Origin: a virus
Virus record (IMG/VR): IMGVR_UViG_3300046809_000449
Span: 1 to 34,323 of that record
Length of the DNA stretch: 34,323 bases
Strand: one strand, 5' to 3'
Made by a program: the position numbers and the translations under genes. Shown here one piece after another: positions 3,156 to 19,687 of this stretch (position 1 is its first letter; each line of letters opens with the position of its first letter). The notes under the pieces are model-generated. The model was given only the letters and a program-made list of their open reading frames with translations. It did no database searches and was not told the origin of the DNA.

Positions 3156-3235
3156 CCATGCCGTGCCGTGCCATGCCTCGCCTGGCCCCACCGGGCCCAG
3201 CCACACCTCGCCGTGCCATGCCTCGCCGGGCCGTG
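3156..3235. repeat. Pentamer array A (16 x CCNNG)
   Basis: Eighty bases made of 16 units in strict 5-base phase. Each begins CC and 14 end in G (CCGTG, CCATG, CCTCG, CCGGG and similar). It lies in the 167-base gap between the tape measure gene and the next tail gene. This is the only copy in the rightward late region, so here the CCNNG strand is the mRNA-like strand, opposite to the eight arrays in the early operon. Confidence 0.9.
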
Positions 3236-3244
3236 AACGATTTT

Positions 3245-3274
3245 ATTTTACCCGACAAACGCAACCAGAGTCGA
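3245..3274 (-). promoter_or_regulatory. Candidate minus-strand promoter for the antisense RNA
   Basis: Minus-strand -35-like TCGACT (3269-3274), 18-bp spacer, and -10-like TAAAAT (3245-3250); a second overlapping TAAAAT lies at 3240-3245. The predicted start falls just before the pentamer array. This AT-rich patch stands out in very G+C-rich DNA. Confidence 0.4.
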
Positions 3275-3280
3275 TAGCCG

Positions 3281-3664
3281 ATGCCTCCGATGACTTTGCT
3301 CTCGATCGATGGAATCGATTTCAGCCCCTGGGCCGCGCGCGGCATCACGATGACGTTGGAGCCGATTCAGCAGGCGGCCAATCTGGCGCGCGATTGCCGC
3401 GGCGAGCTGGTCGACATCTCGCTTGAGCAGTTTCGGCAGCACAAAGTTTCGGTTACCTGCACCGATCACGAGGCGCCGGAATTAAGCGGCATTTGGCCCG
3501 GTCAGAGCGTAACCATCGAATGCATTCCCTATCTCGGGGCATCGAATACAACCGGCGACGTGCTGACCCTTTTGGCGAGGGTAACGGCCTGGAGTACCTC
3601 ACGCGATGAATGGGCGGCAGAAACCGCGTGGAAATTGGAAGCCGAGCAGCGAGTGATCGCCTGA
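3281..3664 (+). CDS. Minor tail protein, unknown function
   Basis: A 127-residue protein following the tape measure gene and overlapping the next gene's ATG by one base (TGATG), so it belongs to the tail operon. It starts MTLLSIDGIDFSPWAARGITMTLEPI and contains VTCTDHEAPELSGIWPGQSVTIECIPYL, consistent with a beta-rich tail component. It has no recognisable catalytic motif. Two ATG codons (3281 and 3290) are possible; neither has a strong ribosome site. Position and size fit small distal-tail or adaptor proteins of siphoviruses, but no family was recognised. Confidence 0.6.
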   Translation: MPPMTLLSIDGIDFSPWAARGITMTLEPIQQAANLARDCRGELVDISLEQFRQHKVSVTCTDHEAPELSGIWPGQSVTIECIPYLGASNTTGDVLTLLARVTAWSTSRDEWAAETAWKLEAEQRVIA

Positions 3665-5625
3665 TGCCCGCCGGGACGGTTTATTTTTCCTGGATCGATC
3701 CGGGCGAGACGGTATTCGGGCCCGAGCATATGCGCTGGGACGAGAACATCTTCTCGTTCAGCATGAAGCAGGATGAGGGCGATCCGGCGAGCATGACTAT
3801 CGTTGTTCGCCGGCCGCGCAACGAGGCCGGCAATGCGATCGGCCTTCTCGGTCCCGGCCGCAAGATCTGGGCGTGGTTCGCGCTCGACTGTGGACCGGAC
3901 CTGATCAGGTTTCGCGGTCGGCTCGTCGGTGTTCCGACCAGCATTTTCGAGGAGCTGGTGACGTTGGAGTTCGTCGCGCGGCCGATCGATCTCGTGGCGC
4001 AGAAGGCTGCGCTCGCCGACACGTTGCGTGTGCTGCCATATTACGACGAGGTGGTGATCGATCCGACGCGGCGCACCGATCCGGAGGTCGTGCTCGAGGG
4101 TTACAGCAAGATTTGGCATTATGACCGCGAGACCCACGTCCTGACAGTGTCGGACGAGATCACCGGCGAAGACGGCCTCGTCGAATTCGATGGCGCCAGC
4201 GAAGACGGCAAGGTGCTCTATGACGGCCTCGGCCTCACACTCACCTCTGGGCCGCTGGCGCGTGTCGACATCAAGGCAGAATTCACCTGGACCCAGTTGG
4301 CGAACGGCAATGTTGACCTCACCCATTACCTGGTCAGTCACTGGGGAAGCGGAGGGCCAAACTATATCACGTCATACACGCTCGAGGCCGCCGATTGGCC
4401 AAAGGCCGGCGCCACCATCGGCGCCGGCTGGACCGTCGCGGACGCCACGGCCGCCAATGTTTATGGGGACTACCAGACCAAAAGCACGACCACGGGCAGC
4501 ACCCTCACCGTCACATTCCCAGATGACTCATGGTTCGGCCCGTCGTCACACACCACAACCTTCTCGCAAACCGAAACAACGTTCAACAAGCCGCCAGGCT
4601 CGATTCCATACCCCGAACCGCCTGTAGATAACGCGCAGTGGAAGGACGCCATCGGCGAGGAGTCTGTTTTCGGAACCTCGACCTACATAGCATCCTTCAG
4701 TCGAAACTATTCCCAGAACACGCCCGTACTGGCGCTGAACTACACGGTGCCGACCCTGGTGGCGGGTTATACAGCAAATCGGCAATGCTCCGAGCTGGTG
4801 TCGTTCTCGCTGTTTGCCGATGTGCAGTCCGTTCTGACTGATCCCGATGATGGTGAGGCGCTGAGCATCCTCGATATCAAATCGGTCAACCTCAGCGAAG
4901 CGATCGGCGAAGGCACGGGCGCCTATGTGCCGATCGGAGACCCGCGGCGGCGATCCTATATCGCAACAGAGCGCGGCAACGAAAGCGTCGAGCATCTGAT
5001 TGCGCTGGCGCGGGCGCACCTGATGCAACGGGCGCGCGTCGTCGAGATAGCGGTTGTGCCGAAGCTGTCGCGCATGCCGGAAATCACGTTGCGTAAGAAC
5101 GCCTTTCTGGTCGAACCGCGCGTCGGCGAGGCGCTCGGCAAGATCATCGGTTATTCGTTGGCTCTTGATGGCTCGGATGGTCGGATCAAGTGTGAGGTTC
5201 GTATCGGTTGCGCCATCGGCCGCGGTGGTTCGGCCGTGGCCGCCGGCGGGCTGCCGACCTATTGCGAGATTGCCTATACTGGCGCCGATTACCAGCAGTT
5301 CACCGGTCGTGTGGTGCTGTTCGACAGTTCCGTCGGCTATCAGCCACCGAACGCCGATCCTAACGATGACGGCATTAACTTCCTGTCTGTGCTCAGGCCA
5401 GAAGATGTGATTGAGACGCCGCTGGTTGTCGAGTTCGGGGCGGACGAGCAATGGTCGAACGTTGCGGGCTTGAAAACTCAGGAGCAGGTTACAGAACAAC
5501 TGAAAAAAGTCGAAACCCGCGCCACCTTCAAGCTCAAGAGCATGACTCGTCAATTCTCGAGCGATTACGAATTACAAGTCACCGATCTGCAAATTCCGAC
5601 CGGCTATGATCTGGAGGCGGTGTGA
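3664..5625 (+). CDS. Tail hub/baseplate-like protein
   Basis: A 653-residue protein. The ATG at 3664 overlaps the previous stop codon and fits better than the upstream in-frame start, which would lie inside the preceding gene. The first ~190 residues (FSMKQDEGDPASMTIVVRRP, then FRGRLVGVPTSIFEELVTLEFVARPID and a segment with SKIWHYDRETHVLTVSDE) look like the hub domain of tail proteins that cap the tube. The middle is Ser/Thr-rich beta sequence. The C-terminus has a repeat-like beta domain (FLSVLRPEDVIETPLVVEF). Order after the tape measure matches the distal tail module. No enzymatic motif was seen. Confidence 0.6.
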   Translation: MPAGTVYFSWIDPGETVFGPEHMRWDENIFSFSMKQDEGDPASMTIVVRRPRNEAGNAIGLLGPGRKIWAWFALDCGPDLIRFRGRLVGVPTSIFEELVTLEFVARPIDLVAQKAALADTLRVLPYYDEVVIDPTRRTDPEVVLEGYSKIWHYDRETHVLTVSDEITGEDGLVEFDGASEDGKVLYDGLGLTLTSGPLARVDIKAEFTWTQLANGNVDLTHYLVSHWGSGGPNYITSYTLEAADWPKAGATIGAGWTVADATAANVYGDYQTKSTTTGSTLTVTFPDDSWFGPSSHTTTFSQTETTFNKPPGSIPYPEPPVDNAQWKDAIGEESVFGTSTYIASFSRNYSQNTPVLALNYTVPTLVAGYTANRQCSELVSFSLFADVQSVLTDPDDGEALSILDIKSVNLSEAIGEGTGAYVPIGDPRRRSYIATERGNESVEHLIALARAHLMQRARVVEIAVVPKLSRMPEITLRKNAFLVEPRVGEALGKIIGYSLALDGSDGRIKCEVRIGCAIGRGGSAVAAGGLPTYCEIAYTGADYQQFTGRVVLFDSSVGYQPPNADPNDDGINFLSVLRPEDVIETPLVVEFGADEQWSNVAGLKTQEQVTEQLKKVETRATFKLKSMTRQFSSDYELQVTDLQIPTGYDLEAV

Positions 5626-6023
5626 TGGGGTTCGAGGTTGTCGTCCGGCCTGCGGTTTTTCCCAATATCCGACCGGCATCGCCGCGCGTGCTTATGCCAG
5701 AGGACAATCCTACTCAAGATATCGCTGTGATCGGTGGAAGCAGCGGCAAGTTCGTCGGCACCTCGTTGAGCTGGAGCACGAGTCTCTCGCGCCAGAATCC
5801 GTACCAGGAAGCCGCGCGGCAGTTCACCAAGGAAAGGGTTCACCAGGTGGACGACAAGGGCAACGTCAATAAGAAGAACTATGTCGATGTCGAGCGGGTG
5901 CAGAAAATAAGGCTTCAAACCATCGATGGACCACTCAGGTTTGTTTATGAGGACCCGCCGCCACGCGAGAATATAGAAACGTTGGCACGTGACCTGGCCC
6001 GCGCATCCCGGGTATCTGAATGA
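5625..6023 (+). CDS. Hypothetical tail-module protein
   Basis: A 132-residue protein whose ATG overlaps the stop of the hub-like gene (TGATG), indicating coupled translation. It begins MGFEVVVRPAVFPNIRP, contains a Ser/Gly-rich patch (IGGSSGKFVGTSLSWSTSLS) and a charged C-terminal half (VERVQKIRLQTIDGPLRFVYEDPPPRE). No known family was recognised; by context it is a structural or assembly protein of the tail tip. Confidence 0.5.
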   Translation: MGFEVVVRPAVFPNIRPASPRVLMPEDNPTQDIAVIGGSSGKFVGTSLSWSTSLSRQNPYQEAARQFTKERVHQVDDKGNVNKKNYVDVERVQKIRLQTIDGPLRFVYEDPPPRENIETLARDLARASRVSE

Positions 6024-6075
6024 GATTGAGTCGTTCAAAAAACGCGAGGCGGCGCTCGACGCCGAGCAATCTGAG

Positions 6076-6876
6076 ATGACCATCGTTTACGTTACTACTG
6101 GCGCCTGGGGCGCCGGGACTGGAGCGCCAAATAGCGCGGCCCAGGTCGACGGCAATTTCTATGACGTCGATCAGCGCATTGTCTCGCTGAATGCCGATCT
6201 GGCCGAAGGCAAGCGCATCGACTCCGTCACCTATACAGACACCAGCATGACGTTCCATTTTACCGATGGAACATCGCAAACCATTCCGCTGCCGATTGCG
6301 ACCATCACTTACATAGGACAGTGGACGAACAGCACCCCATACACCCGTGGCCAGATGGTTTCGGAGCGGGCTCGCGGCATGTATCAGGTGCTCGTCGACC
6401 ATACGACACCGCCGCTTCCGGCGGTCTTTGATCCCGCCGCGACGGACGTCAGCGGCAACCCGCTCTACGCATTCTGGATGCCGCTCTATGACGTCAACTA
6501 CGATGCGGCAATCTTCGTGCCTGGCAGCATCCAGCGTGCGCCCGAGGAGCTGCTGTTCCAGGCAGTTGCCAACCGGACGCTGCGGCTAGGAAGCGGAAAC
6601 GCTCACGCATACGCTTATCTGGATGTCGGCAATAATTCGACCGGCGCAACCGACATCATCCTGTCAATTGAAAAGAACCAGCTCGAGATCGGCACCATCA
6701 TTTTCGCTGCCGGCGCGGACATTGCGGCGGATGGTAGTCAGACCGGGTCTTTCAACGTTCCAGCCTGGACGGACTTTGCCGAGGGTGACACTTATGCGAT
6801 CCGTGTCATTCAATCCGGCAACGCCGCGCCGTCCGGCCTGTCGGTGACGCTGCCCTTCCTGCGCACGGATATCTGA
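6076..6876 (+). CDS. Tail fibre/appendage protein
   Basis: A 266-residue protein from the ATG at 6076. The motif MTIVYVTTGAWGAGTGAPNS followed by AAQVDGNFYDVDQRI is the usual opening of phage tail-appendage proteins (xNFYxLxxRI). A longer GTG-started version from 5989 would overlap the previous gene and looks less natural, though it cannot be excluded. A beta-rich middle (FTDGTSQTIPLPIATITYIGQW, then YTRGQMVSERARGMYQVLVDHT) resembles a carbohydrate-binding-type module, and the C-terminal ~110 residues form another beta domain. It probably takes part in host-surface recognition. Confidence 0.6.
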   Translation: MTIVYVTTGAWGAGTGAPNSAAQVDGNFYDVDQRIVSLNADLAEGKRIDSVTYTDTSMTFHFTDGTSQTIPLPIATITYIGQWTNSTPYTRGQMVSERARGMYQVLVDHTTPPLPAVFDPAATDVSGNPLYAFWMPLYDVNYDAAIFVPGSIQRAPEELLFQAVANRTLRLGSGNAHAYAYLDVGNNSTGATDIILSIEKNQLEIGTIIFAAGADIAADGSQTGSFNVPAWTDFAEGDTYAIRVIQSGNAAPSGLSVTLPFLRTDI

Positions 6877-7025
6877 TGCCGGTCGGTGCGTATTCCCAGG
6901 ATCTGCTGACGCGCATCTACAATGTGCATTGGGCATCCGGTCTCGCAGTGATATTCGGCAAAGAGGACACCGACGCCCCGCCATTCGAGCCAGCCGCGCC
7001 GATCGTCGATCAGGAGGACACTTGA
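6876..7025 (+). CDS. Small hypothetical protein
   Basis: A 49-residue ORF (MPVGAYSQDLLTRIYNVHWASGL through to IVDQEDT). Its ATG overlaps the previous stop (TGATG) and its stop TGA overlaps the next gene's TTG start. This double coupling argues that it is translated. The function is unknown; it sits among fibre genes. Confidence 0.5.
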   Translation: MPVGAYSQDLLTRIYNVHWASGLAVIFGKEDTDAPPFEPAAPIVDQEDT

Positions 7026-8830
7026 GCTATCTGGAAATGCAGACCTCTCCGCTTCCCGATATGAAGAGCGGAATCATTTCGGTATGGTTTCGTGACCCGA
7101 CTCTGAACCCTGCTCCGGTCGCGGACAATTGGCCACTTCCGATGCCGCCGGATACGCTCGCTTATGCCGACAATCATCCGCTCGAGGCGTTGTTCTGGAA
7201 CGCTTACGGGATTCCGATCCCGCAGTTCGGCCGGATTCTGCTTTTCCCCGCGCCGGTCACGCTGCCGTATCCGCCACCGTTGCAGACCGACACGATGCAT
7301 ATGCTGCTCACGTTCGGAGACACCGATCAGAGCTATGACTATTGCCCATGGATTTTGGAATATCCCGAGGTTTTACAATACGTCCATTACACCGGCGCGC
7401 CGGTTCCCGGCGTCGGATTCGATCCGGTTAACTGGCCCGCGCCTTATGCGCCCTATTATTTTTTTCTCTTCGGCGGCGACAAGGGTAAATTCAAGGTCGC
7501 CAACTACAGGCTTGGCGGCCCGCAGCCGCGGGCTGGCATTGTTCCGCAGTCGTTCATCGGCGTCGATCAAGACGGCTATATAAGGATTTGTCTGCAAACC
7601 AAAACCAAGGCCGACTATAAGGGATATGCATACCAACTCGACAAGATCACCAACATCATGGCGACGGCGACCAATACAGGTGACCCTCCACCGGCCGGGG
7701 CGCCTCCGCTCCAGATATGGCCCGGCTACTGGGATGGCTATCAATTCGCGCATAAGGATGTTTCCAACCAAATCATGGCGGCTGCGCCCGAGTGCTTCGT
7801 CATTGGGAGCGGTCCACCCAATATCAATGACGGTGGTGAGGGACCGCGGGTTTCCGGCACAGGCTGGCATCATCTATTGTTTTCTTTCAACATCGACGGC
7901 GAGGTGACAGAGGATCAACTTGAGCAAAGCACGACATATAACACCCCTTATATTTCGGCATTCAGCACCTTTTGCAGAGCTTGGTTGGCACTGGATGATG
8001 TCAACTATACAGGGACCGCATTGCAGAAAGCGTATCTCATACATCAAGGAACATACGGACTGCCGCTGCTGCCGGGGCAGGGCGGAAATCTCGATGGCGC
8101 TTTTGGAACGACGCACGTTTTCCCGAGGCGTTATTTCGGGAACATCGGCAACAACGACATCATTCCGCAGAATGCCTGGCTGTACGGTGCAACCGGAACG
8201 CCGCGAAGCGGGATCGTGGAGACCTACACCAGTTCGGCCGGCATATCGAACGGGCTCGCGCCCCTCGGGTCGCCTGCCGGCGATTTTCAAGCATTGAACT
8301 GGGCAGGACTCCTGGCCACCAGTTATTACGGAGCGGCGGCGGTGATACCGCTCAATCCGCCTCGACCTGATATCCCGAACCCGATGACATATTATGATCC
8401 GCCAAGCTATCGGGGCGGCCCCTTTGTGCTCCCGACCGCGGGCTTTCCCATCGGCATCCCGGTGCAGCGGCGCCATCTCAAGCACAACACCGGCATTGAG
8501 ATGGCCGAGCTTCAGATATGGGCAAACAAGACACTGGACACCGGCGACGTGACCATGCGCCGTTTGTTCCTTGACTACCCGAACGACGAGAACGGCAATC
8601 CCGATAAGACCAAACCAATGGAGCCGGTAGACCCGAGCGTGGCCGCCAAAGTGTTGGGTCAGCCGGACATTCTGCTGAACGGCACCGACGATTGGAAAAC
8701 CGGACGGAACACCGGCAAGTTGGGAGTCACTACCGACAAAAACGGCAATCCGGTAATTATCCGGGCCGGGCAGTTTCAGGCCATCGGCAAGATAGAGCAG
8801 TTTCTGCCAGATCCCCAACTCGGGAAGTGA
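7022..8830 (+). CDS. Large tail fibre/receptor-binding candidate
   Basis: A 602-residue protein. AGGAGG at 7012-7017 points to the TTG at 7022 as start (an ATG 15 bases later is the alternative). The N-terminus has PDMKSGIISVWFRDP. Around residues 250-345 a region with GTGWHHLLFSFNIDGEV and AWLALDDVNYTG resembles a concanavalin/LamG-like jelly roll. ELQIWANKTLDTGDVTMRRLF near residue 500 may be the strand that completes that fold after a long insertion. Rich in Pro, Gly, Tyr and Trp. Lectin-like binding is inferred from sequence character only. Confidence 0.55.
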   Translation: MSYLEMQTSPLPDMKSGIISVWFRDPTLNPAPVADNWPLPMPPDTLAYADNHPLEALFWNAYGIPIPQFGRILLFPAPVTLPYPPPLQTDTMHMLLTFGDTDQSYDYCPWILEYPEVLQYVHYTGAPVPGVGFDPVNWPAPYAPYYFFLFGGDKGKFKVANYRLGGPQPRAGIVPQSFIGVDQDGYIRICLQTKTKADYKGYAYQLDKITNIMATATNTGDPPPAGAPPLQIWPGYWDGYQFAHKDVSNQIMAAAPECFVIGSGPPNINDGGEGPRVSGTGWHHLLFSFNIDGEVTEDQLEQSTTYNTPYISAFSTFCRAWLALDDVNYTGTALQKAYLIHQGTYGLPLLPGQGGNLDGAFGTTHVFPRRYFGNIGNNDIIPQNAWLYGATGTPRSGIVETYTSSAGISNGLAPLGSPAGDFQALNWAGLLATSYYGAAAVIPLNPPRPDIPNPMTYYDPPSYRGGPFVLPTAGFPIGIPVQRRHLKHNTGIEMAELQIWANKTLDTGDVTMRRLFLDYPNDENGNPDKTKPMEPVDPSVAAKVLGQPDILLNGTDDWKTGRNTGKLGVTTDKNGNPVIIRAGQFQAIGKIEQFLPDPQLGK

Positions 8831-8834
8831 TCCG

Positions 8835-10743: not shown

Positions 10744-11367
10744 ATGTCCGAGCTTACAGAAGAAGAAAAACAGCTCAAGCGAGCGAGGCAAACGGCCGCA
10801 AAAAGACGATACTACCTAAAAAACAGAGAGGCGAAAAAGCAGTATGCTAGGCAATATCGCATAGAGCACAAAGAGGAAGTTCGCGCTTCGCGGAAACGCT
10901 ATCGAGCTAATAACCTTGAAGCACGAAAAGAAAAGGTCAGACAATGGGCGGCGGCTAACCCGGAAAAACGAAAAGAAAGCGCCAGACAATGGACAGCACG
11001 TAATCCGGATAAAATCCGGCGCAGAGGTCTTAATAGGTACGGCCTGACGCCAGAAATGTGGGATGCACTATTTGAAGCGCAGGGACGACGTTGCAAGATT
11101 TGTCGTAGTGATACGCCGACCACTAAGCGCGGGTGGCACGTAGATCACTGTCATAACAGCAATACTGTACGCGGCATTCTCTGTCAAAAATGCAACCAAG
11201 GGCTAGGAAATTTTCGTGACAATGTAGAGTTTCTAGTAGCCGCAGCAGCATATTTGGCTGGAGAAAAAAACAATGATGATGCAGGCCAGATCATGGATGA
11301 AGGACAACAGCACGTTGCTGTACTTCCTTCTTGCTCAAGCCTTAGCCCTTGCCGGGATTGGTGTTAG
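10744..11367 (+). CDS. Endonuclease VII-type homing endonuclease
   Basis: A 207-residue protein. Residues 10-95 are Lys/Arg-rich with repeated short motifs (YRxxNxEARKEKVRQWAAANPEKRKE), likely DNA-contacting. Residues about 96-172 are a recombination endonuclease VII-type His-Me finger domain: GLTPEMWDALFEAQ, CKIC (117/120), WHVDHCH (131-137) and CQKCNQGLGNF (147-157), that is two zinc-binding CxxC pairs around the catalytic DHxH. The gene is visibly richer in A+T than its neighbours. Its last ~30 codons overlap the next gene in another frame. TAGGAG precedes the ATG. Most likely a free-standing homing endonuclease rather than a resolvase for this phage. Confidence 0.8.
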   Translation: MSELTEEEKQLKRARQTAAKRRYYLKNREAKKQYARQYRIEHKEEVRASRKRYRANNLEARKEKVRQWAAANPEKRKESARQWTARNPDKIRRRGLNRYGLTPEMWDALFEAQGRRCKICRSDTPTTKRGWHVDHCHNSNTVRGILCQKCNQGLGNFRDNVEFLVAAAAYLAGEKNNDDAGQIMDEGQQHVAVLPSCSSLSPCRDWC

Positions 11368-11575
11368 CATAATCTCCTACATGGTACGGCTCGAAACGCG
11401 CGTCAGCACGCTCGAAGTCCGCGGCTCGCCGCACCTCTCCGAGATCAACAACCGCCTGACGGTGCTCGAAAGCGTGACCAGAACCAACAAGGATAGCCTC
11501 GATCGCGTCGTTGACATCATGACCAAAGAGCTTCGCATCCTGCCGACTTTGCCAACCGGAAGAGGCCCACCATGA
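11273..11575 (+). CDS. Small membrane coiled-coil protein (lysis accessory or holin-like)
   Basis: A 100-residue protein: short amphipathic N-terminus, one transmembrane helix (YFLLAQALALAGIGVSIISY), then a coiled coil (RLETRVSTLEV, NRLTVLESVTRTNKDSLDRVVDIM). This is the build of XhlA-like or spanin-like lysis helpers. It overlaps the amidase start (ATGA), so a lysis role is likely. It begins inside the homing endonuclease gene, and its own 5' end appears to be a diverged copy of the fragment left at 10680. Confidence 0.6.
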   Translation: MMMQARSWMKDNSTLLYFLLAQALALAGIGVSIISYMVRLETRVSTLEVRGSPHLSEINNRLTVLESVTRTNKDSLDRVVDIMTKELRILPTLPTGRGPP

Positions 11576-12651
11576 CCACTCTCTGCGGCAAGGTCTCGCA
11601 CTTCGGCGGCCCGAACGACACGGGCGTCTCGCCCAGCGAAGGTCTTGCCTTCATTTACTCGGTCGACATGGCGCCAAACTTGTTTTTGCCGACGCAGCCG
11701 CCCGGCACGACCGGGCTCGCGCGCCGGCTCGATCCGAGCAAATTCTATATCGCGTGCCGGTGGGACTACGACGCCCCTGGCACATCCAAGGACGACTTGC
11801 TCCACGTCAAGGTGCTGATCCGCGCGCCCAAGACCGGCAAGGAGTTCGTCTGCGTCCCGGCCGACTGGGGGCCACACGAATCAACCGATCGCGTCGCCGA
11901 CATTTCGCCGGGGCTCATGGATGCGCTCGGCATTCAGACCGACGACGAGGTCGAGGTTATTTTTCCAGTCAAACGAGGGGAGACCGTTGCCGTGCCATAC
12001 GATCGCGTCGCCATATCTTCCGGCCACGGCGCCCTGGTGCGCGGCGCCAGCGGGGTGCTCGACGAGGTCGACGAGGCGCGCCGCGTAGTCGAAGCTGTGG
12101 CCGACAAGCTCGCCTCGCGCGGCGTCGATGTCGTGGTGTTTCACGACGACACCTCGACCACGCAAAGCCAGAACCTCGATGCCATCGTGTCGTGGCACAA
12201 CAAGCAGGACCGCGAGCTGGACGTGAGCGTCCATTTCAACGCCTACGTCGAAACAACGAAGCCGATGGGGACCGAGGTGCTCTACGTCACCCAGTCTGCG
12301 CTCGCGGGCGAGATGAGCGCGGCCATTGCGGATGCAGGTGATTTTATCGACCGCGGCGGAAAAAAACGTGCTGATTTGGCGTTTTTAAACGGCACGACCG
12401 CCGCAGCAATTTTACTCGAAACCTGTTTCGTCGACAGCGCGGCCGACGCCGAACTCTACGAGGCGAACTTCGACGTGATCTGCGAGTCCATTGCCCAGGT
12501 GCTCGGCGGGCCGCCTCAAGTGGCCGAGCGGCCGCCGGAAGGCGAGAGGCCACCGAAGCCGGTGCCCCCAGCACGCCAGCCCACGGTCAGGGTCGACATC
12601 GAAGTGGTCGGCGAAGTGATCGTGCTGGTCAACGGGGTTCCCGTCACATAG
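11572..12651 (+). CDS. N-acetylmuramoyl-L-alanine amidase (endolysin)
   Basis: A 359-residue endolysin that should cut the amide bond between MurNAc and the stem peptide. Residues 1-132 form an N-terminal beta domain (CGKVSHFGGPNDTGVSPSEGL, VPADWGPHESTDRVADISPG, DDEVEVIFP) resembling the double-psi barrel found in some phage lysins. Residues about 144-310 are an Amidase_3 zinc amidase with ligand and catalytic positions H152 (ISSGHG), E168, H221 (VSVHFNAY) and E283 (LLETCFVD). A Pro-rich linker and a ~25-residue beta tail (VRVDIEVVGEVIVLVNGVPV) follow. It is the last rightward gene here and ends 3 bases from a convergent leftward gene. Confidence 0.88.
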   Translation: MTTLCGKVSHFGGPNDTGVSPSEGLAFIYSVDMAPNLFLPTQPPGTTGLARRLDPSKFYIACRWDYDAPGTSKDDLLHVKVLIRAPKTGKEFVCVPADWGPHESTDRVADISPGLMDALGIQTDDEVEVIFPVKRGETVAVPYDRVAISSGHGALVRGASGVLDEVDEARRVVEAVADKLASRGVDVVVFHDDTSTTQSQNLDAIVSWHNKQDRELDVSVHFNAYVETTKPMGTEVLYVTQSALAGEMSAAIADAGDFIDRGGKKRADLAFLNGTTAAAILLETCFVDSAADAELYEANFDVICESIAQVLGGPPQVAERPPEGERPPKPVPPARQPTVRVDIEVVGEVIVLVNGVPVT

Positions 12652-14107: not shown

Positions 14108-14200
14108 AATACGCCAAAACACCCCCTTTTTGCCCCCTGTTCGTGCTTTCGCGAGAACAGGTGGCGACTGGGTAAAGTCTTTGATTTGTTGGGGTTTTTC

Positions 14201-14245
14201 TGGTCGGAGCGCCGAGATTTGAACTCGGGACCCCCAGTCCCCCAG
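14201..14245 (-). other. attP core: 3' end of tRNA-Pro(GGG)
   Basis: Read on the minus strand this is the 3' half of a tRNA: anticodon loop CTGGGGG (anticodon GGG), stem ACTGG, variable GGGTC, T-arm CCGAG-TTCAAAT-CTCGG, acceptor CGCTCCG, A and an encoded CCA. No matching 5' half (CGGAGCG plus D-arm) is present upstream, so this is not a complete tRNA gene. Beside a tyrosine integrase it is the expected attP core that restores the host tRNA-Pro gene after integration. The crossover point within it cannot be fixed from this sequence. Confidence 0.75.
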
Positions 14246-14286
14246 AATGGCGTCCTAACTCGAAGATCATGCTGTGCCCCAGCGGT

Positions 14287-15471
14287 TTATGCAAGCTTCC
14301 CCTTGCGGCTCCGGTGGAAACTCCGGTGGTTTGTGTCACCGTCGGCGACTCCGGTGGCGCGCGCGGACTTGCGCTGCCCGGCAAGCTTGTCGATCACGTC
14401 GGCGACGCCCTGTTCGTTCGCGGCGCCGTAAATGTTGAGCGTGGTCGCGACGTCGGCGTGGTCGAGCATCTTCTGGACGATCGGGAAGCCTTCCGCGGTG
14501 CCGACCGCCCGCAGCGCCTTCTTGGCGGTGTCGTGGCGCAGATCGTGAAAGCGCACCCGGTCGGCGCCGACCATGAGCCCGGCCTCGGCCCTGATGGCGT
14601 TCCATACCTTGCGCAGACCGTCCTTGGTGATCGGGTAGCGGTGGCCCTCGATCCGGCCGTCGCGGGTGCGCTGCGCCACGTAGGTGAACACCCGGGTGGG
14701 GTGATGGCCGCGCAACGGCCATAGGATTTCACGGATGGTGTCGTTGATCTTGATCTTGCTGATCTTGCCGCCGGCGCGGCCCTTGGTCCGCATCGTGATT
14801 TCCCGGGTATCCCAATTCACGCACGACCATTCGAGCGTCAGAACCTCGGTCTTGCGCTTGGCGGTGGCGCGGCAGAATTCGAACAGCGGCTCGTAATCCT
14901 CGCGCTGGCTGGTGATCGCGGCTTCGAGGCGGAGCGTCTCGTCGGGGCCGAGCTCGCGGGCAGGGCGCTTCGGCTCGTCCAGCCACAGATCACGCCACTT
15001 CGGCTCGTTCGGAAACCGGACGCTCGGCCGCAGGTAGGTGAACAGCTTCTTCAACTGCTCGATGGTGTCGTTGACGGTGTAAGCCGAGACCGGGCGCGGC
15101 GGTGTCCCGTATGTGTGGCCGAGCCGCCAGCGCCGCAGCTTGAGCACGTCGTCGTGCGTGATCGCGGTGATAAGCTTGGTTGCCCCGAAGTAATCGACCA
15201 GCAGGACGCAAAGCCGAAGCGTGTTGTCGGCGCCGGCATGACGCTCGCCGACGTCCTTCATGTAGCGCACCGTCACCGGATCGAGCGCGAGCGATGTGTC
15301 CCCGTCGCTCTGCGCAGCCAATGCGGCGCGCAGCTCGGCCTCTAGCTCCCCGGCGCGTTTTTCCGCCTCGCGGCGACTCGTGCATCCCGTAGATCGTGAA
15401 TACTTGCGGCCGTCGATCCAGATGTCGGCCGTGAGGTTCTTCGACTTCTTGTCCTTGTAGACGCTCGACAT
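14287..15471 (-). CDS. int: Tyrosine-family phage integrase
   Basis: A 394-residue site-specific recombinase. The N-terminus (DIWIDGRKYSRSTGCTSRREAEKRA) is an arm-binding type domain, residues ~65-150 a core-binding SAM-like domain, and residues ~175-355 the catalytic domain. Catalytic residues are R206 (ATAKRKTEVL), K230, H309 and R312 (FHDLRH), H338 (MLDHAD) and Y348 (TTLNIYG). All are in the expected order, so it looks active. Its 3' end lies 42 bases from the tRNA-Pro core and its last codons cover the right-arm repeats. The start overlaps the preceding HTH gene by 130 bases. Confidence 0.92.
   Translation of the reverse strand: MSSVYKDKKSKNLTADIWIDGRKYSRSTGCTSRREAEKRAGELEAELRAALAAQSDGDTSLALDPVTVRYMKDVGERHAGADNTLRLCVLLVDYFGATKLITAITHDDVLKLRRWRLGHTYGTPPRPVSAYTVNDTIEQLKKLFTYLRPSVRFPNEPKWRDLWLDEPKRPARELGPDETLRLEAAITSQREDYEPLFEFCRATAKRKTEVLTLEWSCVNWDTREITMRTKGRAGGKISKIKINDTIREILWPLRGHHPTRVFTYVAQRTRDGRIEGHRYPITKDGLRKVWNAIRAEAGLMVGADRVRFHDLRHDTAKKALRAVGTAEGFPIVQKMLDHADVATTLNIYGAANEQGVADVIDKLAGQRKSARATGVADGDTNHRSFHRSRKGKLA
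14307..14357 (+). repeat. Right arm of attP: three CTCCGGTGG repeats
   Basis: Direct copies of CTCCGGTGG at 14309, 14321 and 14349. The first two have the same 12-bp spacing and the same TTTGTGTCACCG tail as the left arm. They lie inside the last codons of the integrase gene. Same orientation as the left-arm sites. Confidence 0.6.
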
Positions 15472-15659
15472 GGTTTTCTCTTCTTGCGCTGGCGGATGAA
15501 TTCTTCGATGTCGGCGGGCTCGAAAGCTCGGCGTTCACGCTTCTTGCCGCGGCCGATGTTGACGTAAACCAGGTCGCCATCGGCCACATAGCCGTCGAGA
15601 GTGTCGAGCGAAACGCTGAGCGCTGCGGCGGCTTCCTTCGGGGTCAGTAGGTTGCTCAC
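15342..15659 (-). CDS. Excisionase-like HTH DNA-binding protein
   Basis: A 105-residue protein whose first ~55 residues are a MerR/HTH_17-type winged helix (LLTPKEAAAALSVSLDTLDGYVADGDLVYVNIGRGKKRERRAFEPADIEEFI), the fold of phage excisionases. Start GTG at 15659 overlaps the stop of the small upstream gene (GTGA), with AGGAG upstream. The last ~43 residues are Arg/Ser-rich and overlap the integrase start in another frame. It probably sets the direction of recombination at the nearby attP. Confidence 0.7.
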   Translation of the reverse strand: MSNLLTPKEAAAALSVSLDTLDGYVADGDLVYVNIGRGKKRERRAFEPADIEEFIRQRKKRKPCRASTRTRSRRTSRPTSGSTAASIHDLRDARVAARRKNAPGS

Positions 15660-15799
15660 TTGTGACTCCTATACATGAGAATCTCATTCGCGACCTCGAA
15701 GAGCTTCTCTTCGGCGTCGGTGAAGCGGCCGACAACGTGGTCGCGCTCAAGAGGTGACTCGCGATTTAACTTCAAACTCGCCGCACCAATCCCGTCCAT
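15656..15799 (-). CDS. Small hypothetical protein
   Basis: A 47-residue ORF (MDGIGAASLKLNRESPLERD through to NEILMYRSHK) that starts inside the previous gene and ends with TGA overlapping the excisionase GTG. This coupling is the main argument for it. Its VGRFTDAEEKLFEVANEI resembles IALRFVKAEEKLFEVAATI of the 59-residue gene ending at 16057, and both genes share an identical 26-bp stretch (15690-15715 and 16073-16098). Function unknown. Confidence 0.45.
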   Translation of the reverse strand: MDGIGAASLKLNRESPLERDHVVGRFTDAEEKLFEVANEILMYRSHK

Positions 15800-16049
15800 A
15801 CGTCAGCGGCCAGAAGGAACTATCTTTCATGAGTCCGCCAAAATTCTCATCATCTGGCCTCTCGGCAGCGAGTTTCGTCACCGAAAAAGTGATCGTATTT
15901 AACAACTCACCAATCAAATCGAACTTCCACGGCGACGCCTGCGGCGCATTTCGGTGGCACGCTCCAATTTGATCATCAACGTGGTCGTCCTTGGAGTCCT
16001 TATCCAAAATCCAAAACTTGCAGCGGTGACACTGGGGTCGCTTGTTCAT
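15747..16049 (-). CDS. Small cysteine-containing phage protein
   Basis: A 100-residue protein from the ATG at 16049. CHRCKFW near the N-terminus, CHRNAP about 25 residues later, and DWCGEF near the C-terminus supply cysteines in a pattern (CxxCxFW, CRRxAP, WCGEF) common in small alphaproteobacterial phage proteins that probably bind a metal. It overlaps the next small gene and lies 7 bases after the preceding stop. The function is unknown. Confidence 0.65.
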   Translation of the reverse strand: MNKRPQCHRCKFWILDKDSKDDHVDDQIGACHRNAPQASPWKFDLIGELLNTITFSVTKLAAERPDDENFGGLMKDSSFWPLTYGRDWCGEFEVKSRVTS

Positions 16050-16056
16050 ATTAGCT

Positions 16057-16236
16057 TCATTCAATCGTCGCGGCGACCTCGAAGAGCTTCTCTTCGGCCT
16101 TGACGAAACGGAGCGCGATGCCGGTGGGAATGCCCTGGTCCTCATGCGGCGCGGTGTCGATGCACGCCAGGAACGCCGCGCGCGCGTCGCGCCATTCGAT
16201 CACGGCCTCCGTAAGAATGTCATGCTCCCGGTTCAC
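16057..16236 (-). CDS. Small hypothetical protein
   Basis: A 59-residue protein (start GTG, NREHDILTEAVIEWRDARA, ending FVKAEEKLFEVAATIE). The GTG overlaps the stop of the preceding gene (GTGA), which supports both the gene and the start. It is helical and acidic, of the kind found in early operons of rhizobial phages. It shares its C-terminal motif with the 47-residue ORF ending at 15656. No function known. Confidence 0.55.
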   Translation of the reverse strand: MNREHDILTEAVIEWRDARAAFLACIDTAPHEDQGIPTGIALRFVKAEEKLFEVAATIE

Positions 16237-16415
16237 AACAATCGTTCCCCTTGCGCCTGCTTCTCGTAGTCGTCCGCGATCGCCTGCATGACCTCGATCC
16301 GCCGCTTGGCGTCGCTCTCATCGATCTGGCCTCTCGCGATCCACTGCGGATATAGCCGCCGGCGCATTTTCAGCTCGCGCTCGACCTCCCGCAGCTTGTC
16401 CTCGGCTGCGAACAT
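16233..16415 (-). CDS. Small helical hypothetical protein
   Basis: A 60-residue protein from ATG 16415 (MFAAEDKLREVERELKMRRR, then YPQWIARGQIDESDAKRRIEVMQAIADDYE). A TTG-started form from 16445 would overlap the previous gene by 17 bases. Charged and mainly helical, with heptad-like spacing in the first 25 residues. Its stop overlaps the next GTG. Common as a phage hypothetical protein; function unknown. Confidence 0.6.
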   Translation of the reverse strand: MFAAEDKLREVERELKMRRRLYPQWIARGQIDESDAKRRIEVMQAIADDYEKQAQGERLL

Positions 16416-16428
16416 TTTCGGATTTCTT

Positions 16429-16614
16429 TCAGTCCATCGGTACAATCACTTCACCATGGACCGGACAGCGCCATACAGGCAGATGATGCGGCTGCTCGCA
16501 AATGCATTTTGCGCCAAACTCAGTTGCACTCGCTGAGTGACCGCAGTTTAGGCAGTCGACGGCGTGCTTGGTGTACCGCTCGACGCGATCAGAACCGCAC
16601 TCGGGGCATTTCAT
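16429..16614 (-). CDS. Small zinc-ribbon protein
   Basis: A 61-residue protein with CPEC at residues 3-6 and CLNC about 16 residues later (a zinc ribbon), followed by CIC and WRCPVHGE, possibly a second metal site. AGGGG lies upstream of the ATG at 16614. It is one of three zinc-ribbon miniproteins in this leftward operon. A role in binding nucleic acid or a host protein is possible but not shown by the sequence. Confidence 0.6.
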   Translation of the reverse strand: MKCPECGSDRVERYTKHAVDCLNCGHSASATEFGAKCICEQPHHLPVWRCPVHGEVIVPMD

Positions 16615-16639
16615 ATTTGGCCCCTACTCTTAGTCCGCG

Positions 16640-16828
16640 TCACCATGACTTGCTGACCTTCTCGATAGCGGCGCGTGCGATCTCGCGGGCTTCGTATTTG
16701 GTCATTGGTGTCCAAGTATGACCCGGGTCTGGATGCGCACCGCGAAAGCCCTCAACGATCGCCTCCAATGCATCGAGCAGATCAGGACCGGCTTGTTTGA
16801 TGCGCTCAAGCTCCTCTAGGGTTTTCAT
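16640..16828 (-). CDS. Small hypothetical protein
   Basis: A 62-residue protein (MKTLEELERIKQAGPDLLDAL through to REIARAAIEKVSKSW), mostly helical with a short Gly/Pro turn (GAHPDPGHTW). The LLDALEAIVEG and ARAAIEKV pattern is seen in many small phage proteins without known role. It is the first gene after pentamer array B and starts 23 bases after it. Confidence 0.6.
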   Translation of the reverse strand: MKTLEELERIKQAGPDLLDALEAIVEGFRGAHPDPGHTWTPMTKYEAREIARAAIEKVSKSW

Positions 16829-16851
16829 GACCTTTCAAACCCCCAAAATAT

Positions 16852-16931
16852 CCCTGCCTTGCCATGCCTCGCCAAGCCATGCCAAGCCGCGCCCGGCCAA
16901 GCCTCGCCGCGCCAGGCCGCGCCTCGCCGCA
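16852..16931. repeat. Pentamer array B (16 x CCNNG)
   Basis: Eighty bases, 16 units in strict 5-base phase, starting CCCTG and ending CCGCA. It begins (in transcription order) 2 bases after the ParB-like gene's stop codon and ends before the ribosome site of the next gene. Confidence 0.9.
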
Positions 16932-16933
16932 TC

Positions 16934-17593
16934 TCAAGCCGCGGTCGATTTTGCCGCCTTCATATCCGCCCAAAGCGAAATCAGCCTTTCCATCTCATGC
17001 GCAAAACCATCGGACCGCGGCCACATATCGGTCTCGATCAGTACGCAAAGCTGACGAAGGTGGAACGTCGCCTTGCCGCCGCTGTATCGCCGATTGAGCG
17101 CTTGTTGCTCTGTGTTGAGCGTTTCGCCGTGTAGGTGGCTCAAACCGCCCTTGAGCGCGATAGGATGGCCGTCCGGCGCGCTAGCAAAGCCGCGCTCGAT
17201 CTTTTCGATCCTTTCGAGAGGCAGACGGACCACTTCGGCGATTTGCTCGCGCGTATAGCCATACTGCTCCAATCGAAGCACCGAATGACGGATCGTATAT
17301 TGATCAAGCGGCGTGCCGTGGCTGATATTTAACCTAACAGCGTCGGCGAACAGGTCGGCGTCGCTGGCATACTTTTTTTCGATGACATCTACCTTGGTTA
17401 TACCCTTGCGCTTGTAAACCTCTAAACGGTGGCGCCCATCGACGAGACGGTGAGTCTTTGCCTCCACCACGATCGGAGGAAACTTGGCGCCCGCCTCGCC
17501 GGCGAGCGCGAGTCGCTGAATGTTGAACTCGCTCACGCCATTTCTGGGATACACAGTCTCGTCGAGTACTATTTCGTCGATCGCTAGTTTCAT
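16934..17593 (-). CDS. ParB/Srx-fold domain protein
   Basis: A 219-residue protein from ATG 17593, which has a near-perfect ribosome site (AAGGAGG). The frame stays open upstream only because it crosses the pentamer arrays. Residues ~1-95 hold a ParB-like nuclease/CTPase-type domain: DEIVLDETVYPR, then FPPIVVEA and LVDGRHRLEVY (DGRHR at 52-56). A helical region with YTREQIAEVVRLPLERIEKIER follows, resembling the HTH part of ParB. It may act in plasmid-like maintenance, replication or gene control. Arrays lie on both sides of it. Confidence 0.75.
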   Translation of the reverse strand: MKLAIDEIVLDETVYPRNGVSEFNIQRLALAGEAGAKFPPIVVEAKTHRLVDGRHRLEVYKRKGITKVDVIEKKYASDADLFADAVRLNISHGTPLDQYTIRHSVLRLEQYGYTREQIAEVVRLPLERIEKIERGFASAPDGHPIALKGGLSHLHGETLNTEQQALNRRYSGGKATFHLRQLCVLIETDMWPRSDGFAHEMERLISLWADMKAAKSTAA

Positions 17594-17613
17594 CGGTTCC
17601 TCCTTAGTCAAAA

Positions 17614-17972
17614 CCCTGCCCTGCCTCGCCAAGCCGCGCCATGCCGCGCCCAGCCCCGCCACGCCGCGCCGCGCCTTGCCTCGCCTCGCCCAGCCGCAAC
17701 TCATGCAATTCACAAAGTATCCCTGCCTCGCCATGCCGCGCCGTGCCGCGCCTCGCCAGGCCACGCCGGGCCCGGCCCCGCCGCAACGGAAATCCAACAA
17801 AGTAGCCCTGCCAAGCCGCGCCACGCCGCGCCGCGCCGCGCCGCGCCTTGCCCAGCCGCAACTCATGCAATTCACAAAGTATCCCTGCCTCGCCCTGCCG
17901 TGCCGTGCCCTGCCTTGCCGCGCCGCGCCGCGCCAGGCCACGCCGTGCCCGGCCAAGCCTCGCCGCGCCATA
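17614..17972. repeat. Four tandem pentamer arrays C-F with conserved spacers
   Basis: Arrays C (17614-17698, 17 units), D (17721-17785, 13), E (17806-17860, 11) and F (17883-17972, 18), all CCNNG in 5-base phase. Each starts CCCTG; C, D and E end CCGCA. They are separated by non-pentamer spacers of 22, 20 and 22 bases. The C/D and E/F spacers (17699-17720, 17861-17882) are identical and the D/E spacer is related, all sharing the core ACAAAGTA. This cluster fills the whole gap between two genes and is non-coding. Confidence 0.9.
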
Positions 17973-17975
17973 CCT

Positions 17976-18617
17976 TCAATCTTCGACTGTGAACGATCGC
18001 ACCGCGAAGCGACCGAACGGGCCGTTCTTCTGAGGCCGATAATCGCCAACGCCCATGCGGTTGCCGGCATCGCCCATGATTTCGGCGATGATCTCTGGCG
18101 ATTTGATCAGCACTGGATCAAATTCAACGCTGAATGTCGCGGACCACTCGTCGAAACGCGGTCGTCGTCGAATGATGCCCTGGCGCTGGACAATCGCGCG
18201 TCTACTGTCGATCACATAGTCCTTGATCGGCGAGCCGTCCCGACGCTGCAGAGGGATCAATTCTTCGGACACCACAACATGGGCGAGGTGGCTCTTCATG
18301 GTCGAGCGCTTGGCCTTCCAGGCACCGGCGGCGCCAAGCAGCGAGGCGCGGAAGGCTTCGCCCTTGATGGCGCATGTGCCGTCCGGGAGGCGATAGACGC
18401 CGTTCTCGGCTTCTACTTCGGCCTCAGGGATTCTCGTGCCGCGCTTGGCGCTCGTATCGCCGCCCATGGATTCCGGGTTGTGTGTGAGCAGCGGCTTGAT
18501 GCCATCGACGGTGATCCGAATTGTGCGGATCGTTGGCGCTGCTGGCCCAAGTGCAGGTTCTGACGCCGCCGGTATGGAAACTTTCGCTTTTAGTTTCGTC
18601 GTCGTTTTATCCAACAT
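17976..18617 (-). CDS. Conserved phage protein, unknown function
   Basis: A 213-residue protein from ATG 18617 (GGGAGAG upstream); the longer frame to 18686 crosses array G and is rejected. It contains IRITVDGIKPLLTHNPESM, CAIKGEAFRASLLGAA, YVIDSRRAIVQRQGIIRRRPRFDEW and, near the C-terminus, GDYRPQKNGPFGRF. The pattern LTHNP ... GDYRP ... GPFGRF marks a family I believe recurs in alphaproteobacterial phages but cannot name. It lies among replication/recombination genes, bracketed by arrays. No catalytic motif was seen. Confidence 0.6.
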   Translation of the reverse strand: MLDKTTTKLKAKVSIPAASEPALGPAAPTIRTIRITVDGIKPLLTHNPESMGGDTSAKRGTRIPEAEVEAENGVYRLPDGTCAIKGEAFRASLLGAAGAWKAKRSTMKSHLAHVVVSEELIPLQRRDGSPIKDYVIDSRRAIVQRQGIIRRRPRFDEWSATFSVEFDPVLIKSPEIIAEIMGDAGNRMGVGDYRPQKNGPFGRFAVRSFTVED

Positions 18618-18640
18618 GCTGTGCTCTCCCTTGTTTAAGA

Positions 18641-18715
18641 CCCTGCCTTGCCGTGCCCTGCCATGCCTTGCCTCGCCCCGCCTCACCCGGCCTCGCCCGG
18701 CCTCGCCAGGCCATA
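18641..18715. repeat. Pentamer array G (15 x CCNNG)
   Basis: Seventy-five bases, 15 units, starting CCCTG and ending CCATA. It sits between the stop of the DnaA-domain gene (18720) and the ribosome site of the 213-residue gene. Confidence 0.9.
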
Positions 18716-18719
18716 TCCA

Positions 18720-19256
18720 TCAAATGTCATCCATATGAAATCGCATCGAGCGGACCCACTGATGCACCGTCGCGTTCTCCGGCATGCCATCCGCGGCAGC
18801 GGCGAGCACGGGCGCTAGCTTGCGTATGGCGTGCAGCACGGTCGTATGATCGAAGCCGCCGGCTCGCCGGCCGATCTCGGGCATGCTCTTGCGCGTCAAA
18901 TGCCGGGCGAGCGCGAAGGTCAGCGACCGCGGTGCCACCACAACGGCAAAGCGGCGGCGCCCGAACAGCTCGTGCCGGGTGATGTGGAATTCATCGCACA
19001 CCGCCTTGGCCACTTCTTCGAACCGTGACAACGGGTGGCGCAGCATAACCGCAAAGCTCGCGGGCAGCTCCACCGGATCGTTTGACGCAGGTGGCGGCGC
19101 GGGCACCTTTTTTGTGCGGCGCCGGCGCGGCGGGCGGATTGTTTCAGGCGGCGCGGGCATGAGCTCTTGCCAAAATGCCGAATGAATAGCCCGGTATCTC
19201 GCCAGCATTTCCTCGGCGCTCGAATAATCCGGCACTTGTGCGGGTGCGACCTTCAT
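18720..19256 (-). CDS. DnaA domain-IV (origin-binding) protein
   Basis: A 178-residue protein. Residues ~75-165 match the C-terminal DNA-binding domain of DnaA: AVCDEFHITRHELFGRRRFAVVVAPRSLTFALARHL, then PEIGRRAGGFDHTTVLHAIRKL (about residues 126-147), the DnaA signature helix. There is no AAA+ ATPase domain; the N-terminal ~70 residues are Pro/Arg-rich and unordered. It could bind DnaA boxes to act in phage replication or to interfere with host initiation. Its ATG overlaps the preceding gene's stop (ATGA). Confidence 0.82.
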   Translation of the reverse strand: MKVAPAQVPDYSSAEEMLARYRAIHSAFWQELMPAPPETIRPPRRRRTKKVPAPPPASNDPVELPASFAVMLRHPLSRFEEVAKAVCDEFHITRHELFGRRRFAVVVAPRSLTFALARHLTRKSMPEIGRRAGGFDHTTVLHAIRKLAPVLAAAADGMPENATVHQWVRSMRFHMDDI

Positions 19257-19459
19257 TGCAGAGCATCCCGTTCACCACTTTCGATCTCGGCGACGCGCGC
19301 CATCAGGCTCGTTATCGCAACGTCTCGATCCGCATCGTGATGATGGAGAAACCACGCAATCATGGTCGCAAGCATGCCCTCGCGGCCGTCATCGTTGAAC
19401 GGTGTCAAGATGTTGCACATGGCGTCGAGATCGCGACGCACCTCCGATTCGGATTTCAT
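19253..19459 (-). CDS. Small hypothetical protein
   Basis: A 68-residue protein (MKSESEVRRDLDAMCNILTPF through to VAEIESGERDALQ). A GTG two codons upstream (19465) is an alternative start, and it would overlap the stop of a possible 19-residue ORF. The protein is helical and acidic with MLATMIAWFLHHHDAD in the middle. Its stop overlaps the start of the DnaA-domain gene, so the two are likely co-translated. Function unknown. Confidence 0.55.
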   Translation of the reverse strand: MKSESEVRRDLDAMCNILTPFNDDGREGMLATMIAWFLHHHDADRDVAITSLMARVAEIESGERDALQ

Positions 19460-19461
19460 TT

Positions 19462-19521
19462 TCACGACGCGCCTCGCTTTCCTTCGGCGATCATCAAGGC
19501 GTAAATCATCCAAGTATCCAT
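19462..19521 (-). CDS. Possible 19-residue leader peptide
   Basis: MDTWMIYALMIAEGKRGAS, starting at the last unit of array H and ending in TGA that overlaps a GTG of the next gene. The coupling is suggestive, but nothing else supports it. Confidence 0.2.
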   Translation of the reverse strand: MDTWMIYALMIAEGKRGAS

Positions 19522-19592
19522 GCCTCGCCGTGCCGTGCCTTGCCCGGCCTCGCCTCGCCGCGCCATGCCACGCCTCGCCGCGCCCCGCCACA
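19518..19592. repeat. Pentamer array H (15 x CCNNG)
   Basis: Seventy-five bases, 15 units in phase, separated from array I by a 20-base spacer (19593-19612) that carries the same ACAAAGTAT core as the spacers in arrays C-F. Confidence 0.9.
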
Positions 19593-19612
19593 TTCGGAAA
19601 TCCACAAAGTAT

Positions 19613-19687
19613 CCCTGCCTCGCCAAGCCTTGCCAGGCCAGGCCTTGCCAAGCCGTGCCTCACCGTGCCTCACCTTGCCGGGCCGGA
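19613..19687. repeat. Pentamer array I (15 x CCNNG), overlapping a gene end
   Basis: Fifteen units starting CCCTG. The last three units code for the final residues (SGPAR) of the 392-residue gene, and the gene's stop codon is inside the array. So the array has extended into coding sequence, or the gene end has been replaced by array. Confidence 0.88.

Follow-up and report, generated by a model that had tools for sequence, protein, structure and literature searches.

What is encoded by the nine arrays of degenerate 5-bp units that lie between the genes of the phage record IMGVR_UViG_3300046809_000449 (34,323 nt, analysed over its whole length and called the window, or W, below), and why does one of them stand on its own in the late-gene region, remote from the other eight? 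We find that the arrays have the repeat code of the guide RNAs (vrRNAs) of VIPR, and that a gene for the VIPR protein Vipr lies among them. The window phage is thus very probably a carrier of VIPR whose lone cassette, at position 3156, is aimed at the copies of the adjoining late gene in related phages, its own copy fitting less well, so that relatives would be silenced. According to the only description of vrRNA or Vipr that we found in the literature from 2025 on (PMC13142463, a preprint of 2026), VIPR consists of a phage RAMP protein, Vipr, and of vrRNAs with 9–16 YNNGG repeats, in which the NN dinucleotides specify double-stranded DNA with one base skipped. The experiments of that work demonstrated ribonucleoprotein formation, binding of double-stranded DNA and silencing, with the plaquing of lambda reduced by five orders of magnitude; phage SUSP1 and a Pseudomonas fulva prophage provide the type II examples (PMC13142463). 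Below, other fetched loci and records are designated by L and a number, and a guide by the position of its array (e.g. W_3156).

The arrays have the repeat code of vrRNA genes

A pattern scan of the whole window recovered all nine arrays listed in an earlier note on this DNA, with the unit counts given there: 3156–3235 (16 units), 16852–16931 (16), 17614–17698 (17), 17721–17785 (13), 17806–17860 (11), 17883–17972 (18), 18641–18715 (15), 19518–19592 (15) and 19613–19687 (15). On the plus strand the units read CCNNG or CCNNA, and no minus-strand array of such units exists in the window; read from the minus strand, they are CNNGG with a few TNNGG, better written YNNGG, i.e. GGY alternating with a free NN. 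Runs of six or more CCNNR units number nine on the plus strand and none on the minus strand, compared with none on either strand in 200 random windows of the same first-order composition. The 35-nt pattern (CCNNG)7 gave 53 matches in the forward and none in the reverse direction, and a backward control gave none. As the earlier note had it, phase is kept rather than exact sequence: the inner NN vary while the GGY register remains constant, which rules out a slippage microsatellite. In the 31 arrays of W, L249 and L250 the 3'-most unit is nearly constant (NN is AG in 28 and AT in three) and the penultimate unit is restricted, while the inner NN are variable. Arrays of the gene block often close with CRAGG CAGGG followed by ATACTTTG, and the lone array with CACGG CATGG followed by AGACGA; what many of the clustered arrays have in common at their 3' end does not go beyond a brief ATACTTTG-like stretch.

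Nearly all of the array DNA is non-coding and intergenic, and the single intrusion into a gene end reported before is that of the ninth array, which overlaps the 3' end of the gene 19670–20848 by 18 bp. All nine do keep one orientation, as claimed, but a difference from the orientation of the flanking genes exists for the array at 3156 only; each of the remaining eight is on the minus strand together with the gene block that surrounds it. An origin in assembly error is contradicted by independent IMG/VR records with arrays at corresponding places, both in the gene block (L249/L353, L250 and L251) and at the lone site (L353, L357 and L358). The DNA around vipr in L249 is about 93% identical to the window, and among the corresponding arrays (those with the same flank on at least one side) the NN letters agree at 12/26, 8/30 and 7/22 positions (13/22 if the last is anchored at its other end) and at 26/26 in the array at 19613, the guide of which is identical in both phages. 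Rfam yielded no match at E ≤ 1 within 16500–20000, and neither the whole window nor the interval 16200–20900 contains a repeat-spacer array of the CRISPR type, the units being of 5 bp only.

Because the arrays follow the YNNGG code described in PMC13142463 and have a Vipr gene among them, all nine are best explained as minus-strand genes for guide RNAs, with GGY as the register and NN as the putative targeting letters. Guide RNA genes account for the arrays better than a platform for DNA-binding proteins, mRNA spacers or recombination points, the roles proposed earlier, and elements that the earlier note could not place in a known class belong to one already described.

The window encodes a Vipr protein

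The vipr gene (17976–18617, minus strand, 213 aa) has the 18-unit array beginning 3 bp past its stop codon and the array at 18641 lying 23 bp upstream of its start, with phage genes around. Its product is related to the SUSP1 Vipr (PDB 36pp_D) with E = 2.4e-6 in phmmer and E = 3.7e-44 with a profile of 42 proteins, namely those of the window, of L250 and of 40 other array-bearing loci. All 42 match phrog_4652 (function unknown), and their consensus retains GxGDxRP..G..GRF, the G-rich loop of Vipr; the Pfam search of the vipr product gave nothing significant (best E 0.15). An AlphaFold2 model (pLDDT 88.7, pTM 0.80) finds its best folds among Csm3/Cas7 chains (Foldseek 1.7e-7; Z 13.5 over 165 residues, 3.8 Å), 36pp being absent from the matches in a structure library with entries released up to 8 April 2026. 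By these sequence matches the gene is a Vipr, with a predicted Csm3/Cas7-type RAMP fold.

Relatives of this protein were detected by tblastn in 155 phage records; in L249 the tblastn match extends over all 213 residues at 100%. Among 120 IMG/VR loci listed for the pattern (CCNNG)8 alone, 84 contain a Vipr homolog (jackhmmer), and in these Vipr-bearing loci 332 of 341 arrays are on the vipr strand, at a median distance of 45 bp. The pattern by itself does not define VIPR, because, of the 120 cellular-genome loci listed for it, each fetched with up to 8 kb of sequence, only three contain a Vipr homolog. In the order of Methylobacterium (L229), a guessed host order, Vipr-like genes occur at 10 places in 9 of 397 genomes; a loose array finder detected arrays, some of them weak, at seven of the 10 places, the nearest always on the vipr strand (7/7), and a homolog of the late gene 3610–5625 is present in 3 of the 397 genomes. 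In one bacterial genome (L276, 923–1475) six tandem arrays follow a Vipr homolog, most of them then continuing into a different short tail, AAGTTTTCAAGGTTTCA-like. Two genome contigs (L163 and L153), from metagenome-assembled genomes titled Patescibacteria and Fibrobacteres, have arrays beside Vipr homologs, and VIPR may therefore reach these phyla or their phages.

An orphan guide cassette beside its putative target gene

The lone array (3156–3235, minus strand, 16 YNNGG units) separates the tape-measure gene (777–3113, plus strand) from a conserved late gene (3281–3664, plus strand) whose product of 127 aa has no match in Pfam or PHROG; from its place after the tape-measure gene, we infer that it belongs to the tail region. 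The inserted stretch of about 165 bp comprises the array, an intrinsic-terminator-like hairpin followed by TTTTCTTTT at its 3' end (3117–3148, minus strand; one found, mean 0.5 and sd 0.7 in shuffles) and a promoter-like site upstream (3245–3274, minus strand; TCGACT-18-TAAAAT, 9/12; one found, mean 0.0 and sd 0.2 in shuffles); it contains no nuclease gene. In 12 of 16 aligned loci the cassette is missing and the two flanking genes abut. Terminator-like hairpins resembling that of the window are found in L353, L358 and L396 as well. The cassettes of L419 (783–852) and L431 (1114–1183) occupy the same insertion site with a different long hairpin that lacks a T run, and the 3' end module thus seems to be exchangeable.

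Guides were scored by laying NN, skip, NN and so on along the available sequence on both strands, with arrays masked and with shuffled NN order as the control. A first scan of the initially fetched loci gave nothing significant. The first target came to light in a second scan, after the rest of the relatives' records had been added; the skip-1 scores of W_3156 and W_16852 in it were partly circular, L286 and L255 having been fetched with those guides. The guide of L353, whose array occupies the lone insertion site of the window, matches the window gene 3281–3664 at 23/28 positions, the maximum of 40 shuffles being 19; the site at 3329–3364 (plus strand) accounts for 21/24. W_3156 in turn matches the L353 copy of this gene at 23/32, both matches being at skip 1 and in codon frame, and its best match inside its own genome is again the neighbouring gene.

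Homologs of the gene were fetched from 14 loci for comparison with the guides. Three distinct guides at the lone site (that of W, which is also that of L357, and those of L353 and L358) match the gene at three different sites, with best scores, end units included, of 27/32, 25/30 and 27/32, against 18–20 at skips of 0, 2 or 3; without its last three units the L358 guide fits the L353 gene at 26/26, i.e. in 13/13 inner units. In a scan of 32 guides over 688 kb of strands, which took in these three, they reached 26/28, 25/28 and 24/26 at skip 1, compared with shuffle maxima of 21, 21 and 19. They exceeded the shuffle mean by 5.8–7.3, whereas the guide ranking after them did so by 1.4, and at skips 0, 2 and 3 no excess was above 1.5. 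A skip-3 match of the guide L249_8746, which in the second scan had stood at 22/30 just above its shuffle maximum of 21, fell to 20/28 against 20 in the 688-kb scan and was discarded.

A 16-nt gapped pattern made from units 5–12 of W_3156 and run over all of IMG/VR hit 48 loci, 44 of them with a homolog of the neighbouring gene. This is a test of specificity and not a blind discovery, because the pattern was chosen after the alleles had been seen; an earlier pattern from units 4–11 hit two loci, neither with the gene, because unit 4 mismatches the alleles seen. Two further guides at the same insertion site, fetched after the 688-kb scan, were compared with 64 loci (60 with the gene, several contigs being present twice). 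That of L396 matches the antisense strand of the gene at 20/20 inner positions in 39 loci, and that shared by L419 and L431 matches a site about 300 bp upstream of the gene at 22/24 in 24 loci, the maxima of 12 shuffles being 17 and 18. In L433 the latter site overlaps the end part of the tape-measure homolog (78% over 116 residues), and the 3' part of the tape-measure gene in relatives is thus the putative target of L419/L431. All five distinct guides seen at the lone site therefore match a flanking gene, and for the orphan guide and the four like it recognition of phage genes with a one-nucleotide skip is present as a sequence match.

The guides fit most foreign alleles better than their own

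Each of the orphan guides fits most foreign alleles better than the allele of its own phage. The W_3156 site of the window itself (3473–3511, plus strand, codons 65–77) is a poor match at 18/26, compared with 24/26 over 13 units in the best foreign allele. In a set of 12 distinct alleles assembled independently of any guide match, the own one ranks lowest for each of the first three guides (W 18/26, L353 17/24, L358 20/26), and in a set of 40 alleles, partly fetched with the W guide and hence enriched for its matches, it is uniquely the worst for all three. The own allele of L396 scores 16/20, with only L353 lower (15) among the gene-bearing loci, and that of L419 18/24, with only L353, L421 (17), W and L357 (16) below it, three of these being other carriers. 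Self-sparing, by which we mean only a poorer match of the own allele, is supported by these sequence comparisons, the chance of all three lowest ranks together being about 0.003 if the cases are independent, but the support is not overwhelming because the W and L358 alleles are divergent overall.

The following course of events would fit these data. As in the mechanism of PMC13142463, Vipr would bind the vrRNA, whose NN dinucleotides would pair with double-stranded DNA while leaving out a single base, mostly the wobble base of a codon, between one dinucleotide and the next, and the bound DNA would be silenced. A cell infected or lysogenised by the window phage would make the ribonucleoprotein of the 3156 vrRNA and Vipr, which would block late-gene expression of an incoming or co-infecting relative and leave it without virions, while the window phage's own allele would be spared. 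Because they are neighbours, the guide and the spared allele would be inherited together, and this linkage would protect the carrier and favour the region, as in marker exclusion by SegF-type endonucleases but without cutting.

Target-adjacent guides elsewhere

To place the orphan cassette in a wider setting we compared 313 arrays (9–25 units) from the 120 listed viral loci and from W, L353, L358, L249 and L250 with the 2 kb on either side of them. Matches with z > 3 numbered 12 at skip 1, as against two, one and three at skips 0, 2 and 3 (Fisher p = 2e-4); with the lone arrays of W, L353 and L358 set aside, the figures are 9/310 against 6/930 (p = 0.004). In eight of these nine other cases the skipped bases are wobble bases in the frame of the longest open reading frame, two of the nine being neighbours in one locus. 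Beyond the family of the window, the local signal is strongest for a pair of neighbouring arrays in L103 (11456–11589), both of which match the same long open reading frame within 2 kb (19/22 and 16/20). The L250 guide at 11145 resembles the preceding gene for a protein with a DnaA C-terminal domain (own copy 20/30; window copy 21/30 at 18785–18741, minus strand), a weak indication of a target when taken alone, with a shuffle maximum of 22 and 22/30 in an unrelated locus. The local test supports, at the level of sequence, a pattern that we consider somewhat probable: VIPR guides would also exist as stand-alone target-adjacent cassettes, in which a vrRNA gene beside a gene is aimed at the rivals' alleles of that gene and is linked to an allele that spares its carrier.

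Alternative explanations and contrary evidence

The alternative that survives best is that the orphan vrRNA controls the phage's own neighbouring late gene, for instance by keeping it off in the lysogen. This would be in keeping with the neighbouring gene as the best match of W_3156 in its own genome and with the detection of that match by the local 2-kb test; however, of 40 alleles the own one matches worst for three of the five guides, and for the remaining two it is near the bottom of the range, and the perfect or near-perfect matches sit in other phages, which makes self-control improbable. Less credible still is the notion that the guides are functionless remnants copied from the neighbouring gene, so that the match records ancestry. 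While the match of all five guides to a flanking gene could be read in this way, a copied stretch would have stayed contiguous, whereas what the guides retain is dinucleotides set apart by GGY, from different sites and from either strand, and the own alleles are the poorer match. Finally, a reading in which the arrays are no more than degenerate tandem repeats of an ordinary kind (of microsatellite type, spacers or DNA for protein binding) and have Vipr as a neighbour by coincidence can hardly be entertained: the 117 of 120 cellular loci without a Vipr homolog do demonstrate that the pattern is not diagnostic alone, but 84 of 120 viral loci contain Vipr, the arrays keep to its strand almost throughout, and sequence-specific targets exist for the lone array.

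Several observations weigh against a guide that silences relatives and spares its carrier. The best alleles for W_3156 stop at 24/26, short of 26/26. The set of 40 alleles is biased toward the W guide, although in the guide-independent set the W allele is still the lowest (18 against 19–23), and the own alleles of L396 and L419 are low without being the lowest. Against a consensus guide, the carrier's allele ranks last in 19/118 (W), 11/119 (L353) and 23/118 (L358) windows; the divergence of the own site is only mildly above that of the rest of the gene (0.23 against 0.15, 0.21 against 0.12 and 0.19 against 0.17), with no clear concentration of divergence at the own sites. Among the carriers of the lone array Vipr was found in the W and L353 records only, and not in L357, L358, L396, L419 or L431, all of which are fragments. 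Lastly, no target emerged for the eight cluster guides of the window, which over 7.4 Mb of strands scored, at best, close to their shuffles; IMG/VR was scanned with only three of these guides, and genomes with two (0/387 and 0/381). The nearest cases are W_17614 in L107 (23/30, maximum 22) and W_19613 (21/26, maximum 20, in loci fetched with that guide), and IMG/VR scans with 8-unit seeds of W_16852 (24 loci), W_19613 (42) and W_19518 (19) gave no extension fit to be called a target. A run of nine units in a gene for a tape-measure-like protein of another phage (L255; 22/28) was rejected as not significant against a shuffle maximum of 23.

Genes around the arrays

The minus-strand block begins with an integrase gene (14287–15471) and small genes, continues with a ParB-like gene (16934–17593), arrays, vipr, a further array and a DnaA-C-like gene (18720–19256), and leads via a gene for 68 aa and two arrays to a phrog_3657 gene (19670–20848) and a RecE/YqaJ exonuclease gene (21342–22289); the plus-strand genes of the left part include, beyond those flanking the lone array, an endolysin gene (11572–12651). 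The ParB-like DNA-binding protein, downstream of the 17-unit array at 17614, is a candidate accessory (vap) gene product. The DnaA-C-like protein (178 aa, minus strand) matches the DnaA C-terminal DNA-binding domain only (PF08299, E = 1.7e-20), its remainder showing no match to the ATPase part; encoded near vipr, it is possibly a replication decoy or another accessory protein. Of the 84 other Vipr loci among the listed matches, four have a ParB-like gene near vipr and none has a DnaA-C-like gene there.

Three further features lie apart from the arrays. The open reading frame 20845–21429 (minus strand), between the recombination genes, encodes what we take to be a homing endonuclease of the AP2/HNH type. 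The product of 23034–23705 (minus strand) has the look of a secreted protein: it ends in a VPLPATLPLF-like motif, a hydrophobic stretch and a basic end, as we would expect of PEP/VPEP-CTERM sorting signals, which is odd for a phage. A 45-bp direct repeat (10923–11014; two copies, 78% matches) is contained in the open reading frame 10744–11367, which precedes the endolysin gene.

Relation to known systems

With Class 1 CRISPR-Cas the window system shares the RAMP fold (the Csm3/Cas7 backbone) and guidance by RNA. It differs in its non-contiguous code and in that no repeat-spacer array is seen; among the window proteins scanned (a part of its open reading frames), no CRISPR adaptation genes were recognised.

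VIPR as described in PMC13142463 agrees with the window in the phage-borne RAMP protein of about 20 kDa, here a homolog of the SUSP1 Vipr, in the vrRNAs, built of GGY/NN repeats, that flank vipr on either side within a compact phage locus, and in the targets in phage genes that are read with a one-nucleotide skip at the wobble base. The differences are the remote guide cassette with signals of its own in the late-gene region, apparently aimed at the adjoining gene of other phages, the lengths of the nine guides (11–18 units, compared with the published 9–16) and the candidate accessory genes, ParB-like and DnaA-C-like. VIPR itself is not new; the main text of PMC13142463 makes no mention of guides that adjoin their target gene and have a self-sparing allele, and these are new to that extent. 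Raw metagenomic sequence thus lends support to a guide code first reported in 2026, the analysis having recovered the protein, the repeat, the strand and the skip rule, and does so from phages other than the two systems tested at the bench. To this it adds a rule, namely that some guides adjoin the gene whose foreign alleles they appear to target while their own allele is a poor match, which makes target prediction easy for guides of this kind and offers a model of how guides may avoid self-targeting without a machine for acquisition.

The same rule would connect VIPR with exclusion between related phages, a subject of older genetics. SegF, SegG and MobE are free-standing homing endonucleases of T4-like phages that bring about marker exclusion or intronless homing (PMC2988022). 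In both cases an intergenic cassette would act on the neighbouring gene of a co-infecting relative and favour the region linked to it; the cassette of the window, in contrast, is a guide RNA and not a nuclease gene, and the effect expected of it is silencing, with no known cleavage or gene conversion. The pattern of the orphan cassette resembles marker exclusion, and by analogy the cassette would at most work like a homing endonuclease. If VIPR guides do exist as such target-adjacent cassettes, marker exclusion would have a counterpart guided by RNA: a linked pair of poison and antidote that would explain both how the weapon spreads and how self-harm is avoided, and the targets of such guides could be found by looking next to the guide.

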